64,000 nucleotides of DNA, from the NCBI RefSeq assembly GCF_900091465.1, contig NZ_FMHV01000002.1:3844001-3908000 (forward strand), given 5' to 3'. This stretch comes from Micromonospora rhizosphaerae. GTDB taxonomy: Bacteria > Actinomycetota > Actinomycetes > Mycobacteriales > Micromonosporaceae. Both the position numbers and the translations under genes were made by a program. Shown one piece after another: positions 4,300 to 29,432 of this stretch (the first letter of the stretch is position 1; every line of letters starts with the position of its first letter). Below the pieces are notes generated by a model. The model made no database searches. It had not been told where the DNA came from and saw only the letters and a program-made list of their open reading frames with translations.

Positions 4300-5742
4300 G
4301 TGGTGAGCGAACGAGGCAAGGTGGGGCCGGTGCGCAAGGTGCAGGTGGGGCTCACGGCGGAGGGCGCCGGCCTGTCCGGCGACCGGGTCGTGGCGGTGGG
4401 GAGTACCGCCCGGGTCCTGGTCGCGGCGGCCGCCCGGGCGCTGCGCGGTGAGGACTGCGCCGACCTGGGCCACGCCAGCCCGCTGTCCCGCTTCACCGGG
4501 GCGCCCGAGCCGGTACGGCGTGCCGCGGCGGCCCGGGCCGCCGGTCGGGTCGCCCTCACCCCGGCGCAGACGGCCGAGGTCGACGCCGAGCGGGTGGGCC
4601 GCTGGATCGTCGACCAGTACCCGCGCCGTCGCTATCCGGGCGCGGTGCTCGGTTCGCCGCACGGCGCGGCGGTGCACCTCGCGATGGCCCTCGGGGTGCC
4701 GTGGCTGCCCGCCGCCTTCGAGATGACCGTGCACTGGACCCGTGGGGCGGTGGATCGGCCGCGCGCCGCCCTCGACCACGGCGCCGCCCTCGCCGCCCGC
4801 CTGCTGGCCGCCAACGGCGGCGTGCACGTCCGGCAGGTGCACTGCCCGGCCAGCCGCGGCGCCCTCGCCGGCGCGACGGTCTCACTCGCCGTGCGCTGGC
4901 AGTCGCTGCCGGCGGCGTACGCCCGGTTCCTGGCCGACGTGCTCGAGCCCGGCGCACCGGTGCTGCTGCTGCGCGACGCCCGCACCTGGCCGGTACTCGA
5001 CGAGGGCCGGGGGCACAGCTTTCAGGTCGGCTGTCCGGCCAGCGGGCTCGACCCGGTGGACTTCCACCCGGACGCGCACGCGCTGCGCCAGGTGCTCCGT
5101 TCCGCCGGCGGCGACGGCGCGCACTGGGAGCCGCCCGAGGTCTCCTGCCCGCAGGGCTACGCCGAGAACGGGGTGGAGTCCGGCTTCGAACTGAACGCCC
5201 GGGAGTGGGCCGGCCGGCACGGGCACCGGCTGCACCGGGTGCTCTTCCCCCAGCCGGACGCGCTCAGCGCGGCCACCGCCGACCTCTACCGGCGCTGGTT
5301 GCGCGGCAGCGGCAAGACGGGGAACCGGTTGGTGGTCGAGTGCGGCCGGCTGCTCGACCCGTGGCAGGTGGTCCGGGCGGGGCTGGTCCCGTACTGGTGC
5401 GAGAACGCGACCCGGCGCCGGGTGGAGGGGGTGGAGTGGTGGCTCGCCGGCAGCGAGCCGTTCAGCTCGGTCGACGTGCTGCCCGAGCCGCCGGGCGTTC
5501 GGTCGCCGGCGCTGGCCGGCCTGCCGCAGTGGCTCGCGGTGGCCTCGTTCGGGCGTCGTCGGCGGGCGCTGGACCGGGGTTCGGCGCGCGGCTACCCGGT
5601 CACCTCGGTACCGACCCGGCGTGCCACAGAGGTGCTGCGCAACCAGGCGTACGACCTGCCGGTCCCGCCGCCGCTGACCATGGGCGAGGCCCTGGACGCG
5701 CTCCGGGACGCCGGCTCCCACCAGGGGTTGCTGGTCTCCTGA
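4300..5742 (+). CDS. Conserved hypothetical protein, 480 residues
   Basis: Starts at GTG (MVSERGKVGPVRKVQVGL); an adjacent GTG one codon later is equally possible. Soluble, with no signal peptide or membrane segment. It contains several Cys residues (VHCPASRG, QVGCPASGLDP, VSCPQGYAENG, VVECGRLLDPW, PYWCENATRRR) and Trp-rich stretches (EGVEWWLAGSEP). I do not recognise the family and offer no function. High-GC codon use and a long uninterrupted frame support it as a real gene. It stands alone between a pseudogene and the sigma-factor promoter region. Confidence 0.7.
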   Translation: MVSERGKVGPVRKVQVGLTAEGAGLSGDRVVAVGSTARVLVAAAARALRGEDCADLGHASPLSRFTGAPEPVRRAAAARAAGRVALTPAQTAEVDAERVGRWIVDQYPRRRYPGAVLGSPHGAAVHLAMALGVPWLPAAFEMTVHWTRGAVDRPRAALDHGAALAARLLAANGGVHVRQVHCPASRGALAGATVSLAVRWQSLPAAYARFLADVLEPGAPVLLLRDARTWPVLDEGRGHSFQVGCPASGLDPVDFHPDAHALRQVLRSAGGDGAHWEPPEVSCPQGYAENGVESGFELNAREWAGRHGHRLHRVLFPQPDALSAATADLYRRWLRGSGKTGNRLVVECGRLLDPWQVVRAGLVPYWCENATRRRVEGVEWWLAGSEPFSSVDVLPEPPGVRSPALAGLPQWLAVASFGRRRRALDRGSARGYPVTSVPTRRATEVLRNQAYDLPVPPPLTMGEALDALRDAGSHQGLLVS

Positions 5743-19223: not shown

Positions 19224-19277
19224 CCGCGTCCGCAGGCCGCCCGCCTGACCGCCCCGAGCCCCGCCGCGGGCGTTGAC

Positions 19278-19330
19278 CATGAAGTTGTTGTCCCGACACG
19301 CCGTCGCGAGTGGCGACAACTTCATGATCA
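19278..19330. repeat. Dispersed long-loop inverted repeat, copy 1
   Basis: The left arm CATGAAGTTGTTGTC and right arm GACAACTTCATG pair over about 10-12 bp around a 22-nt loop. It sits between the ends of two convergent genes. A better-conserved copy is at 29378-29432 in the same kind of location. Confidence 0.7.
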
Positions 19331-24343: not shown

Positions 24344-24742
24344 ATGCTCGTCCACGACAAGGTAGCCACGGGCCGGTCCCAGGCGGAGACCGAGCAGATC
24401 CGGCAGTCCCTGCAGTCGCGCTACGACGAGCTGACCGCGGAGTACGAGCAGGCGGTGCTGCAGAGCCAGGTGCTGCGACTGGTGGAGGTCGGCGATACCG
24501 CCGGCGACGACCAGGCCGACAGCGGCACCAAGACCGCCGAACGGGACACCGCGCAGTCCCTGCTGCGCACCATCCTGGACCGTCGCGCGCAGTTCGAGCA
24601 CGCCCTCACCCGGCTCGACGAGGGCACCTACGGCTTCTGCGAGGGGTGCGGCGCGCCGATCCCGGTGGAGCGGCTGGAGATCTTCCCGTCCGCCACCTCC
24701 TGTGTGGCCTGCAAGCAGAACCGGGAGCGGCGGGCGGCCTGA
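24344..24742 (+). CDS. TraR/DksA family zinc-finger protein
   Basis: 132 residues from ATG MLVHDKVATG with AGGAAAGGCAGG upstream. An N-terminal coiled-coil part (EQIRQSLQSRYDELTAEYEQ) is followed by DRRAQFEHALTRLDEGTYGF and a C4 zinc finger (CEGCGAPIPVERLEIFP, then CVACKQ). The family enters the secondary channel of RNA polymerase and modulates initiation, often with ppGpp. Its SigB/F-like promoter suggests induction in stress or stationary phase. Confidence 0.88.
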   Translation: MLVHDKVATGRSQAETEQIRQSLQSRYDELTAEYEQAVLQSQVLRLVEVGDTAGDDQADSGTKTAERDTAQSLLRTILDRRAQFEHALTRLDEGTYGFCEGCGAPIPVERLEIFPSATSCVACKQNRERRAA

Positions 24743-24788
24743 GCGACCGGGGGTTGCCGGTCGGTCCCGGACGGGGTGGACTCCACCC

Positions 24789-25661
24789 ATGGGTGAGATC
24801 AAGGTGGGCACCGCATCCTGGACCGACCGGACCCTGCTGGACTCCGGCTGGTATCCGCAGACCGCGGACACCCCGGAGAAGCGGCTGGCGTACTACGCCC
24901 GGAAGTTCCCGCTGGTCGAGGTGGACGCCACCTACTACGCGCCGCCCGCCGAGCGGACGGCGCAGCTGTGGGTGGCCCGCACCCCGCCCGGCTTCGTGTT
25001 CAACATCAAGGCGTTCAGCCTGCTGACCGGGCACCCGACCCGGGTCGGTGCGCTCTACAAGGACCTGCGCCCGGAGACGGACAAGGCGAACGTTTACCCC
25101 GACGACCTGCCGCCGCAGGCGTACGAGGAGGTCTGGACCCGGTTCCTGTCCGCGCTCGACCCGCTGGTGGCGGCGGACCGGCTGGGCGCCCTGCTGTTCC
25201 AGTTCCCGCCCTGGTTCACCATCAGGCGGGACAACAAGCAGTACCTGCTCGAGGTGGCGAAGCGGTGCGGCCCGCTGCGCCCGGTCTTCGAGTTCCGGCA
25301 CGCGTCCTGGTTCGACGGCGCCAATCGGGACGAGACGCTGGGCTTCCTGCGCAGGCACCACCTGGCGTACGTCTGTGTGGACATGCCCCAGGGGCACCGA
25401 TCCTCGGTACCCCCGGTGCTGGAGGCCACCGCGGACCTCGCGGTGATCCGCTTCCACGGGCACAGCGACAAGTGGACCAGCAAGGACATCCACGAGAAGT
25501 TCGGCTATGACTACTCCGACCGGGAGTTGCGCGACTGGGCGCCGAAGCTGCGCGAGTTGGCCGACCGCACCGAGCAGACCCACGTGCTCATGAACAACTG
25601 CTACCGCGACTACGCGCAGCGCAACGGCCAGCAGCTGCAGGCGCTGCTCTCCTCGGACTGA
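24789..25661 (+). CDS. DUF72 family protein (first of two)
   Basis: 290 residues from ATG MGEIKVGTAS. TIM-barrel-like DUF72/YecE family: KVGTASWTDRTLLDSGWYP at the N-terminus, LVEVDATYYAPPAERTAQLW, GALLFQFPPWFTI and VFEFRHASWFD. The biochemical function of the family is not established. It is 46 bp after the DksA/TraR gene and may be read from the same promoter. A second, distinct DUF72 protein is encoded at 26458-27255. Confidence 0.85.
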   Translation: MGEIKVGTASWTDRTLLDSGWYPQTADTPEKRLAYYARKFPLVEVDATYYAPPAERTAQLWVARTPPGFVFNIKAFSLLTGHPTRVGALYKDLRPETDKANVYPDDLPPQAYEEVWTRFLSALDPLVAADRLGALLFQFPPWFTIRRDNKQYLLEVAKRCGPLRPVFEFRHASWFDGANRDETLGFLRRHHLAYVCVDMPQGHRSSVPPVLEATADLAVIRFHGHSDKWTSKDIHEKFGYDYSDRELRDWAPKLRELADRTEQTHVLMNNCYRDYAQRNGQQLQALLSSD

Positions 25662-26457: not shown

Positions 26458-27255
26458 TCAGCCCCCGGCCGGGCCGGTCGCGTCGCCCGGGCCCGCCTCG
26501 CCCGCCGCCGGCACCCGGCTCACCCGTCGACCGGCGCGCGCGGCGAGGGCCGCGAAGGCCACCGCGTCGACGATGGCCCCGCCGCCGGGGTCGTTGTTGA
26601 AATAGACGTACGTCGGCTCGGCGTCGTCGAAGGTCTGACCCAGCCGGCGTACCCAGGACGCCAGCGCGCCCCGGCCGTACCGCGGCCAGGGGCGCGCCCG
26701 CCCTTCGTGCAGTCGCAGGTAGCCGAAGTCAGTGGTGCGCCACAGCGGCGTCACCGGGCGGCTCAGCCGGTCGGCCCAGACCAGCGCGGCGCGGCGACGC
26801 TCCAGCACCCGGCGGGTCGCGTCGGTCCACCAGGAGGGGTGCCGCGGCTCCACCGCCACCCGCACGTCGGTCGGGAAGAGCCGCAGCGTCGCGTCGAGCG
26901 CGTCGGGGTCGGCCCGCAGGTTCGGCGGGAGTTGGACCAGGACCGGCCCGAGCCGGTCGCCGAGCCCGGTGGCCCGACCGAGGAAGCGGGCCACCGGCTC
27001 GGCCGGGTCGCGCAGCCGCTTGATGTGGGTCAGGTAGCGGCTCATCTTGACCGCCACGCAGAAGTCCGCCGGGGTGCGCGCCCGCCAGGCGACGAAGGTG
27101 TCCCGCTCCGGCAACCGGTAGAAGGCGTTGTTCACCTCGACCGTGGCGAACCGCCCGGCGAAGTACTCCAGCCAGAGCCGCTGCGGCAGCTTCGCCGGGT
27201 AGAAGCGTCCCCGCCAGTCCCGGTACTGCCAGCCGGAGGTGCCGACCAGGATCAT
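26458..27255 (-). CDS. DUF72 family protein (second of two)
   Basis: 265 residues, starting MILVGTSGWQYRDWRGRFYP. Typical DUF72 stretches: TVEVNNAFYRLPERDTFVAW, ADFCVAVKMSRYLTHIKRL, GPVLVQLPPNLRADPDALD, VAVEPRHPSWW and TYVYFNNDPGGGAIVDA. It is only distantly similar to the DUF72 protein at 24789, so it is not a recent duplicate. The small gene at 27265-27534 ends 9 bp upstream of its start, suggesting an operon. Confidence 0.85.
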   Translation of the reverse strand: MILVGTSGWQYRDWRGRFYPAKLPQRLWLEYFAGRFATVEVNNAFYRLPERDTFVAWRARTPADFCVAVKMSRYLTHIKRLRDPAEPVARFLGRATGLGDRLGPVLVQLPPNLRADPDALDATLRLFPTDVRVAVEPRHPSWWTDATRRVLERRRAALVWADRLSRPVTPLWRTTDFGYLRLHEGRARPWPRYGRGALASWVRRLGQTFDDAEPTYVYFNNDPGGGAIVDAVAFAALAARAGRRVSRVPAAGEAGPGDATGPAGG

Positions 27256-27264
27256 CGCGGCCGC

Positions 27265-27534
27265 CTAGCAGAGGTCGAAGCGGAACACCTCGAAGGCCGC
27301 GCCGTGCCGGACGCCGAGGCGGGAGCCGGCGGGCGAGGCGTCCCGGACCGCGTCCAGCACCGCCCGCCCGGTGGCGAGATGGTCGGCGATGAACTCCACG
27401 GTGGACGCCCCGACCAGCGCCGCCGAGGCGTGCTGCTCCCGTTCGCGTACCTCCCGGCTCCGCTCCGGCGGCAGCCCGTCGATGCCGGCGTCCTCGGGCA
27501 GCGGCTCGAGCGGTACGAGGTTCGGCTGCACCAT
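27265..27534 (-). CDS. Hypothetical 89-residue protein
   Basis: Starts at ATG (MVQPNLVPLEPLPEDAGIDG) with GGAGGACAGC directly upstream. Contains an acidic/Pro-rich N-terminus, SREVREREQHASAALVGAST and a C-terminus ending FEVFRFDLC. The family is not recognised. It is divergent from the repeat-protein/JmjC pair with a 197-bp gap, so it may be an accessory part of that locus or of the DUF72 gene downstream. Confidence 0.6.
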   Translation of the reverse strand: MVQPNLVPLEPLPEDAGIDGLPPERSREVREREQHASAALVGASTVEFIADHLATGRAVLDAVRDASPAGSRLGVRHGAAFEVFRFDLC

Positions 27535-27647
27535 GCTGTCCTCCCTGCTCGGATCCGGGCCGGGGTCCATCCTGTCACCGACCGGCACGGGCCGCCCGCC
27601 GCGGGTCGCCCGGCGAAAAGTCCGTTTCGTCGGGCGCCGCCGTCTAC

Positions 27648-27673
27648 GGTTAGAGAAGATCGCGCGTGGGTAC
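27648..27673 (+). promoter_or_regulatory. Possible SigB/SigF-type promoter for the repeat-protein/JmjC operon
   Basis: GGTTA, then after 16 nt from GGTT the element GGGTAC, about 60 bp before the ATG at 27732. The -35 has one mismatch to the GTTT seen at the other sites, so confidence is lower. Confidence 0.4.
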
Positions 27674-27731
27674 CACCCGCCGCACGACGAACCCCGACGC
27701 ACGGCGGGGCGGCACATCCGAGGGAGCACCC

Positions 27732-28073
27732 ATGGCACTCAACGATGACGACATGCAGACCAGCGGCGGCGGCGGTCTCGAGGGTCCGGCCGACGGTGGG
27801 GCCACCCCGGGCCAGCAGGACGGTGGCGCCGACGGTGCGGCGGACCGGGGCGCCGATCGCGGCGCCGACCGTGGTGCCGAGGGTCCGGCCGACGGTGGCG
27901 CGACCCCGGGTGTGCGGGACGGCGGGGCCGACGGTGCCGCTGAGGGTCCGGCGGACGGCGGGGCGACCCCGGGTGTGCGGGACGGCGGGGCCGACGGTGC
28001 CGCCGAGGGTCCGGCCGACGGCGGGGCGACCCCCGGTATGCGGGACGGCGGCGCCGACGGCGCGGCCCGGTAG
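27732..28073 (+). CDS. Repetitive Gly/Asp/Ala-rich small protein, candidate JmjC substrate
   Basis: 113 residues from ATG MALNDDDMQTSGGGGLEG, with AGGGAGCACC upstream. After this 18-residue leader-like part come four copies of a 21-residue unit built as PADGGATPG-xx-DGGADGAA-EG. Copy 1 carries an inserted run of DRGA triplets. Units 2-4 occupy 27885-27947, 27948-28010 and 28011-28070. There is no Cys, Lys, Trp or hydrophobic core, so it is probably unstructured. Only 9 bp separate it from the JmjC gene. Multi-core precursors of modified peptides look like this; a hydroxylated structural or ice/stress protein is another option. Confidence 0.75.
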   Translation: MALNDDDMQTSGGGGLEGPADGGATPGQQDGGADGAADRGADRGADRGAEGPADGGATPGVRDGGADGAAEGPADGGATPGVRDGGADGAAEGPADGGATPGMRDGGADGAAR

Positions 28074-28082
28074 CGGTCCGTC

Positions 28083-29354
28083 GTGACGCACCTCGACCCG
28101 CCGGGCGGCCACGACCGCCCGGCGGTGCCGTCTTCCGCCACCGAGGCGCTCGCCCGCTGCGTCTCGGTGGAGCCCGCCAAGTTCGCCGCCGCCCACTGGG
28201 GGCGCGGCCCGCTGCTCTCCCGCGCGGCCGAACTGCCCAACCCGCACGGCTTCACCGACCTGCTCAGCCCCACCGACGCCGACGAGCTGCTCAGCCGGCG
28301 CGGGCTGCGTACCCCCTTCCTGCGGGTAGCCAAGGACGGCGAGCTCGTACCGGCGGCGCGCTACACCGGCGGCGGCGGCGCGGGCGCCGAGATCGCCGAC
28401 CAGGTCCTCGACGAGCGGATCCTGGAGCTGTACGCCTCCGGCGCCACCCTGGTGCTCCAGGGCCTGCACCGGATCTGGCCGGCGCTGGTCGACTTCGCCC
28501 GCGACCTGGGCACGGCGCTGGCCCAGCCGTTGCAGGTCAACGCCTACCTGACCCCGGCCGGCAGCCAGGGCTTCGCCACCCACTACGACACGCACGACGT
28601 GTTCGTGCTCCAGGTCGACGGCCGCAAGCACTGGCGGATCCACCCGCCGGTGCTGCCCGACCCCCTGGAGAAGCAGCCCTGGGGTGGCCGGGCCGACGAG
28701 GTCTCCGCCACCGCCGAAGGGCCGGCCGCTCTGGACGTGGTGCTCGAACCCGGCGACGCGCTCTACCTGCCGCGCGGCTGGCTGCACAGCGCGCAGGCGC
28801 AGGAGTCCAGCTCGCTGCACCTCACCGTGGGCATCCGGGCGCTGACCCGGTACGCCATGGTGGAGGAGCTGCTCGCCCTCGCGGCCGAGGATCCCCGGCT
28901 GCGCGCCGGGCTCCCGTTCGGCACCGACATCGCCGACCCGGACGCGATCGAGCCGGAGCTGACCGAGACGGTCGAGGCGCTGCGCGACTGGCTGCTCCGG
29001 GCCGACCCGGCCGCCGTCGCGGCCGGGCTGCGCAACCGGGCCTGGCCCGCCGCCCGACCGGCCCCGATCCGCCCCCTCGCCCAGGCCGCCGCCCTGGCCG
29101 GGCTGGACGCGGACACGCGCGTCGCCCTCCGCCCCGGGCTGCGATGGCAGCTCGCCCCGGCAGGGGACGGCCGGCTCGCGCTGCGCCTCTTCGACCGCAC
29201 GATCACCCTCCCGGCACAGTGCGAGCCGGCCCTGCGCACCCTCCTCACCGGCGGGGTGACCCGGGTCGGCGACCTCCCCGGCTTCGACGACGACGCCGAC
29301 CGCCTCGTCCTGACCCGCCGCCTCCTCAAGGAGGCCGTCCTCACCCCCGCCTGA
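28083..29354 (+). CDS. JmjC/cupin Fe(II)-2-oxoglutarate oxygenase (ROX-like)
   Basis: 423 residues from GTG. The N-terminal half is a JmjC double-stranded beta helix: LVLQGLHRIWPALVDFARDL, then the metal site H167-x-D169 in FATHYDTHDVFVLQVDGRKH, and H235 in LPRGWLHSAQA. The C-terminal part (~260-420) resembles the dimerisation and winged-helix regions of ribosomal oxygenases (YcfD/RoxA type). Such enzymes hydroxylate Arg, His or other side chains using O2 and 2-oxoglutarate. Its tight linkage to the repeat protein makes that protein the likely substrate; a ribosomal protein is the alternative. Confidence 0.85.
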   Translation: MTHLDPPGGHDRPAVPSSATEALARCVSVEPAKFAAAHWGRGPLLSRAAELPNPHGFTDLLSPTDADELLSRRGLRTPFLRVAKDGELVPAARYTGGGGAGAEIADQVLDERILELYASGATLVLQGLHRIWPALVDFARDLGTALAQPLQVNAYLTPAGSQGFATHYDTHDVFVLQVDGRKHWRIHPPVLPDPLEKQPWGGRADEVSATAEGPAALDVVLEPGDALYLPRGWLHSAQAQESSSLHLTVGIRALTRYAMVEELLALAAEDPRLRAGLPFGTDIADPDAIEPELTETVEALRDWLLRADPAAVAAGLRNRAWPAARPAPIRPLAQAAALAGLDADTRVALRPGLRWQLAPAGDGRLALRLFDRTITLPAQCEPALRTLLTGGVTRVGDLPGFDDDADRLVLTRRLLKEAVLTPA

Positions 29355-29377: not shown

Positions 29378-29432
29378 GATCATGAAGTTGTTGTCATCCC
29401 GCCCGGCGTGTCCCGGCAACAACTTCATGATC
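29378..29432. repeat. Dispersed long-loop inverted repeat, copy 2
   Basis: A perfect 16-bp inverted repeat GATCATGAAGTTGTTG with its complement, and a 23-nt loop. It lies between the JmjC gene and the convergent FtsK operon, like copy 1 at 19278. It probably acts as a bidirectional terminator or a REP-like element. Confidence 0.8.

Follow-up and report, generated by a model that had tools for sequence, protein, structure and literature searches.

Does a JmjC oxygenase of Micromonospora rhizosphaerae modify the small, repeat-built protein encoded directly before it? The question arises from one locus in the window, the whole 64,000-nucleotide stretch of contig NZ_FMHV01000002.1 that was analysed and to which all coordinates refer. 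Here, the stop codon of the repeat gene and the GTG start of the JmjC gene are 9 bp apart, both on the + strand. The features concerned are as follows.

27265..27534, - strand: divergent gene of 89 aa beside the repeat gene
27648..27673, + strand: promoter-like element GGTT-N16-GGGTAC, read from the sequence, preceding the repeat gene
27732..28073, + strand: repeat gene, 113 aa, kept upstream of JmjC in relatives; its product is proposed to be a multi-core JmjC substrate
27732..27779, + strand: leader-like start MALNDDDMQTSGGGGL, residues 1-16 of the repeat protein
27780..27842, + strand: unit 1, EGPADGGATPGQQDGGADGAA, residues 17-37
27843..27878, + strand: 12-residue insert DRGADRGADRGA between units 1 and 2, residues 38-49, with similar inserts in several Micromonospora relatives
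27879..28067, + strand: units 2-4, EGPADGGATPG(VR/VR/MR)DGGADGAA, residues 50-70, 71-91 and 92-112
28083..29354, + strand: JmjC_2 (PF08007) Fe(II)/2-oxoglutarate oxygenase gene, 423 aa, GTG start
28323-28325, + strand: codon of the invariant R81 of JmjC
28581-28583, 28587-28589 and 28785-28787, + strand: codons of H167, D169 and H235, the metal triad of JmjC

The four 21-residue units that a first-pass annotation had described in the 113-residue protein are indeed present, although not in strict tandem order, the 12-residue insert following unit 1. TRF reported a period of 63 bp over 27859-28067 of the repeat gene (3.3 copies, 89% matches), and a single Arg after unit 4 forms the C-terminus. 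Searches of Pfam and NCBIfam with the repeat protein and three relatives returned no family match. One relative (P0038) is called 'BatC protein' by its source, a name for which a literature search gave no paper.

The same annotation had read the downstream gene, 9 bp further on, as a JmjC oxygenase with an H167-x-D169, H235 triad, and this is borne out: the protein matches Pfam JmjC_2 (E 7.2e-30) and Cupin_8 (E 6.2e-11), and H167, D169 and H235 do not vary across an alignment of 50 relatives, nor do R81, N153, Y155, K182 and others. The solved structures nearest to its AlphaFold2 model (mean pLDDT 94.2) are NO66, MINA53, YcfD and YxbC, with the proviso that structures absent from the comparison lists are not thereby excluded as relatives; the structure entries name NO66, MINA53 and YcfD as protein hydroxylases. 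Identity to NO66 is about 26%. The alignments of the model to these structures extend to its last residue, and residues 344-423 are modelled as strands (346-377) and two helices (378-388 and 404-416). Thus, the PF08007 domain, the triad and the ROX-like fold that define the JmjC_2/ROX family are all found, and the predicted structure is a NO66/MINA/YcfD-like fold with an intact HxD...H triad. R81, present in 50/50 rows, falls where the NO66 alignment has a gap; our guess is that it might hold an Asp carboxylate. Among the best 120 of 5984 homologues, most are named 'cupin domain-containing' or, by analogy, NO66/MINA.

The repeat gene and the JmjC gene form a conserved pair

The pairing is seen in both search directions. 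Starting from JmjC, we scored the DNA upstream for DGGA repeats in loci with at least 250 nt there. The repeat gene lies directly upstream in 106 of the 107 loci whose JmjC is at least 70% identical to ours, and in the single miss (L059) Ns mask part of a visible repeat array. At 44-70% identity it is present in 46 of 50 loci; two of the four misses (L111, L114) do show repeats and the other two (L167, L168) have other Asp-rich peptides. The score falls to 2/7 loci at 38-44% identity and 1/19 below 38%, and the control regions of the loci, about 1.15 kb downstream together with the reverse strand, gave no match. Six loci with less than 250 nt upstream were set aside, namely five close ones, none of which scored, and one at mid-distance, which did; in one of the close ones (L028) the repeats run to the contig end. 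The complete set at 70% identity or above, 112 loci, consists of 33 (L001-L030, L128-L130) plus 79 others, both parts being largely Micromonospora with probably overlapping species, so that near-duplicates are included. Likewise, the 80 named loci nearest to our JmjC, all but one of which belong to the 112, are mostly Micromonospora, the rest being relatives such as Salinispora and Plantactinospora.

In the converse direction, we queried 296 genomes of the class with a single repeat protein and obtained 42 matches, spread over 37 genomes. Each of the 42 has a JmjC match downstream on its own strand, at a distance of -39 to 274 nt. No repeat-gene match occurred in the 200 genomes without JmjC at E 1e-15 (Fisher 2.7e-21 for co-occurrence, kinship ignored). 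The 59 of 96 genomes with a JmjC match but without a match to this one query held, in the loci read, diverged DGGA proteins, other core types or a distant JmjC without a recognisable peptide. The protein query was used in place of a genome-wide DGGADG pattern, which was too frequent to discriminate.

The first-pass annotation had proposed searching other genomes for JmjC genes beside such repeat genes in varying copy number, and had held that JmjC homologues usually found alone would speak against its idea. The search yields a conserved pair with 1-6 units. Above about 44% identity, JmjC homologues are not usually without the repeat gene, which speaks for the idea; below it, the DGGA form is rare, and other, mostly Asp-rich, peptides or none were found. 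The DGGA form is therefore confined to the nearer JmjC relatives, and the adjacency sought in RiPP loci, a small precursor gene beside a candidate modifying enzyme and conserved together with it, is present.

Constant units, shared starts and changing cores

Units were cut wherever 21 residues agreed with the consensus at 11 or at 13 positions, with any position free, and either threshold gave 308 units from 87 distinct Micromonosporaceae proteins. E1, G2, D5 and G7 show no variation at all; D14, G15, G16 and A17 vary only in one masked unit, and D18 is kept in 306. Pro3 (307/308) and Pro10 (303/308) are almost as constant, and positions 12, 13 and 20 vary freely. The entropies at codon positions 1, 2 and 3 are 0.143, 0.142 and 0.984 bits, and such low values at the first two positions with a high one at the third indicate that selection acts on the protein and not on the DNA. 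Most of the 87 proteins have four copies (48) or three (35), the others having two (2 proteins), one (1) or six (1). As a separate observation, the Micromonospora pattaloongensis locus (L104) encodes, upstream of position 5001, an expanded repeat protein of 222 residues, which contains many GADRGVERGADAGADV-type units and exceeds its relatives in length.

The element GGTT-N16-GGGTAC resembles the stress sigma-B/F promoter type, and a weak stress-type promoter had indeed been noted at first pass. Of the upstream regions from Micromonosporaceae, 84 of 106 carry its motif class, compared with 7 of 2120 mononucleotide shuffles, which treat the regions as unrelated and ignore kinship; in other families it is present in just 4 of 50. 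The element thus belongs to the Micromonosporaceae version of the locus.

The start of the repeat protein reaches further. A motif LxDDD[I/M]x[T/S], a broad regular expression, is found upstream in 106/107 Micromonosporaceae loci, 28/50 other DGGA loci, 6/6 TDGD-type loci, 1/4 of other long types and 0/9 short-precursor loci, against 1/176 on the reverse strand and 5/165 downstream in the same loci. It was not found in 22 of the 50 non-Micromonosporaceae DGGA loci, 3 of the 4 other long types and all 9 short-precursor loci; the tally covered loci before L191 that have at least 400 nt upstream, apart from eight individually listed ones. Similar starts (LTDEDI, LSDDDI, VEDEDI) are found by reading in 12 loci of other classes. 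Recognition leaders typically betray themselves by staying constant while the cores change, and the presence of this putative leader motif before different cores fits the modified-peptide reading.

The cores themselves differ widely. In families other than Micromonosporaceae the DGGA proteins vary in form, the extreme (L156) having a core of iterated DGGA that consists of D, G and A only. Cores such as TDGDATDTTDGDASDGD accompany further JmjC clades. In other classes of Actinomycetota, 12 of the 13 loci read have DADGTDGDGTDGTDGD or DADASDADASD cores, the thirteenth (L251) having just 125 nt upstream. More distant JmjC genes are accompanied by short peptides ending in TAGGDSDGTDSSSDFI or in an SDGGGTGRSDxND-like sequence, and for some (e.g. 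L125, L179) no such peptide was seen in the loci read. Of the reactive side chains, Asp alone is present in all cores read. Core type also agrees with the JmjC tree: the five precursor groups and a 'none' group require 5 changes, the minimum possible, on a quick tree in which 16 of 47 inner branches are open and four terminal branches are long, the types having been assigned by reading and one locus (L122) labelled 'none' though the leader motif was found there. In one short-peptide class, five loci (L184, L187, L188, L189 and L232:5797-5934) have peptides with ends such as GGGTGRSDGND before the JmjC gene.

Other genes near the pair

The divergent 89-residue gene had been suggested as a possible part of the locus, but it is not conserved with the pair. 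A tblastn scan (E 1e-6) of loci with more than 700 nt upstream found it in 40 of the 107 loci from Micromonosporaceae and in none of the 117 others, 40 of these others being second, longer stretches from genomes already counted, and copies beyond the reach of a locus would be missed; we rejected it as a system member. Besides itself, its product matched two proteins named LmbE-family.

A different gene recurs on the other side. Clustering of the neighbours in 45 loci placed a Suc_Fer-like protein after JmjC in 14, one of which (L205) has a Pfam match of 6.7e-20 (PF06999). Among 77 loci below 70% identity (L111-L182, L191-L222), most with about 1 kb of downstream DNA, a Suc_Fer motif lies on the coding strand downstream of JmjC in 47, compared with one on the other strand downstream and one upstream. 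Of 12 loci from other classes of the phylum that extend 1.4 kb downstream, 10 have a Suc_Fer-like gene after JmjC. The motif is found in none of the 112 Micromonosporaceae loci at 70% identity or above, 102 of them with more than 1 kb downstream, and the genome of M. rhizosphaerae has no match to the Suc_Fer family; the third gene is therefore dispensable. Fusions of JmjC with the repeat or with Suc_Fer are absent from the best 120 of 5984 homologues. Within about 5.5 kb of the DGGA pair, no protease or exporter family is common to at least 4 of the 45 loci (ORFs of at least 130 codons).

Several further arrangements were observed. In four loci (L211-L214), a distant JmjC and a short peptide such as EVEVEDLAEVTSRDITAGGDSDGTDSSSDFI make up a separate RiPP-like cluster, with a peptidase upstream in all four (S9-like by reading) and a FhuF-like protein 1.1-6.1 kb downstream, Pfam FhuF_C having been tested on the L213 protein only. 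Suc_Fer and FhuF are thus two families of ferredoxin or iron-sulfur type beside one enzyme family, from which a redox role may be suggested. Loci L215-L218 have an APH-like gene nearby, the Pfam match of the L218 protein being below the cut-off. On a Streptomyces clavuligerus plasmid (L231:5772-12187), a 48-aa Asp/Pro-rich peptide with IADNDPSDPPIAIADPDPFDPVI is found with JmjC, an annotated S9 peptidase and an ABC transporter. In the window itself, two DUF72-type genes about 0.8 kb apart lie near the locus, assigned by Pfam at 26458-27255 (-) and by resemblance only at 24702-25661 (+). Directly 3' of the JmjC gene is a 53-bp palindrome (29379-29431, ATCATGAAGTTGTTG ... CAACAACTTCATGAT); its perfect arms recur at 8 places in the genome, 53 bp each, with an imperfect pair at 19276-19328, and it is a dispersed element.

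Candidate hydroxylation of the repeat protein

Our preferred reading, to which we assign a probability of about 0.58, is that the JmjC enzyme hydroxylates Asp residues of the neighbouring repeat protein, its dedicated multi-core substrate. The acidic start (LNDDDMQT) would serve as recognition leader and the D-G-G-A and D-G-A-A units as a core in multiple copies, the aspartates of successive units being hydroxylated by the enzyme with Fe(II), O2 and 2-oxoglutarate. The beta carbon of Asp is the most likely position by analogy with YcfD and FIH; FIH also hydroxylates Asp in ankyrin repeats. The product would be a flexible acidic peptide rich in beta-hydroxyaspartate that could bind iron or another metal, and to our knowledge hydroxy-Asp metal ligands are otherwise known only from nonribosomal siderophores. 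In many relatives outside Micromonosporaceae, the Suc_Fer-like (ferredoxin-like) third gene may keep the enzyme iron reduced or act on the product. Each of these elements is our inference, from the choice of the repeat protein as substrate and of Asp as target to the beta position, the binding of metal and what the third gene does.

Asp, Asn-like and Pro residues had all been proposed as targets at first pass. Asp holds up as the candidate, and Pro and Asn are not required, since the L156 core contains D, G and A only. Against Asp hydroxylation it must be said that the nearest solved relatives are His or Arg hydroxylases and that, in the Micromonosporaceae units, Pro3 and Pro10 are nearly as conserved as the Asp residues. 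The preferred reading is further weakened by the rarity of the DGGA form below 44% identity, by the loci in which the leader motif was not found, by the lack of a common protease or exporter family and by the missing Suc_Fer match in the M. rhizosphaerae genome.

The fold and triad match those of ribosomal oxygenases, and some relatives are named NO66 or MINA by their source. JmjC might accordingly be a YcfD/NO66-like ribosomal oxygenase, with the Asp-rich protein an unmodified accessory that binds it as an Fe(II) chaperone, activity regulator or nucleic acid mimic; Asp-rich flexible chains can bind metal. We consider this unlikely. Core sequence and length differ greatly by clade while the composition stays Asp plus small residues, a copy number of 1-6 points to a substrate with several sites sooner than to a single-ion carrier, and the 200 of 296 genomes of the class without a JmjC match at E 1e-15 are not what a general ribosome modifier would lead one to expect.

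Slightly more doubtful still is a true RiPP, in which cleavage would separate the hydroxylated units and export would release them as short hydroxy-Asp peptides, such as a metallophore or signal. Leader, variable core and enzyme do have this layout, and the S9-type peptidase (by reading) and FhuF-like protein of the four short-precursor loci, as well as the S9 peptidase annotated beside the S. clavuligerus copy, point the same way. Yet a cleavage site between units is not obvious, and the DGGA-type loci share no protease or transporter family. The RiPP layout described in the first-pass annotation is therefore retained in part: the conserved pair, the varying copies and the leader motif across cores support it, but without a common protease or exporter family the case for a finished small RiPP is weaker than that for a hydroxylated protein. 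What we claim is a RiPP-like modification pair, rather than a finished RiPP. That JmjC instead targets the leader or another residue (Pro, His, Gln, Arg or Thr), the DGGA part being mere scaffold, seems improbable: the two conserved prolines and the action of the enzyme's relatives on His and Arg would suit it, but unit positions 12-13 vary and the L156 core lacks Pro, His, Arg, Thr and Ser.

Hydroxylation of Asp in the repeat protein being preferred for this locus, we tentatively put forward, as possible though short of probable, a wider generalization, in which an Asp-dense multi-core precursor, a JmjC Asp hydroxylase and often a ferredoxin-like third gene would produce poly-beta-hydroxyaspartyl peptides in several classes of Actinomycetota. 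If true, bacterial JmjC_2 enzymes would gain a natural substrate class, and Actinomycetota would offer a testable precursor-enzyme unit, often including the third gene, which may reveal a ribosomal path to hydroxy-aspartate-rich metal-binding chains.

In the literature searched, whose scope left out most subscription papers, we found no description of DGGA repeats with JmjC. Among known systems, NO66 (RIOX1), MINA53 (RIOX2) and YcfD/RoxA act, according to the titles of their structure entries, on His or Arg of L8, L27A and L16. Their substrates are ribosomal proteins, whereas here an Asp-repeat gene adjoins the enzyme gene. FIH, as described in the available part of its source (PMC3569879), is a JmjC enzyme that modifies Asn and His of ankyrin repeats. 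It likewise combines a JmjC enzyme with repeated protein units. RRE-JmjC (PF08007) fusions were reported with RRE-Finder in 2025, with bacterial homologues in RiPP-like contexts (PMC12710340); the accessible portion of that report mentions neither a precursor family or repeat nor a target residue or third gene. A further likeness, drawn by description, is with the biphenomycin RiPP pathways, where, according to the available excerpts (PMC12707348, PMC12257519), the JmjC or cupin-like BipG/PbsQ hydroxylate Orn. As there, a JmjC oxygenase would here hydroxylate a residue of a ribosomal precursor; BipG/PbsQ, as far as these excerpts go, perform one tailoring step on a short core within a multi-enzyme cluster, whereas here a single enzyme is paired with a multi-unit Asp-rich protein. 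Overall, JmjC enzymes with ribosomal precursors are known in outline, and the Asp-repeat system would add a variant to them.
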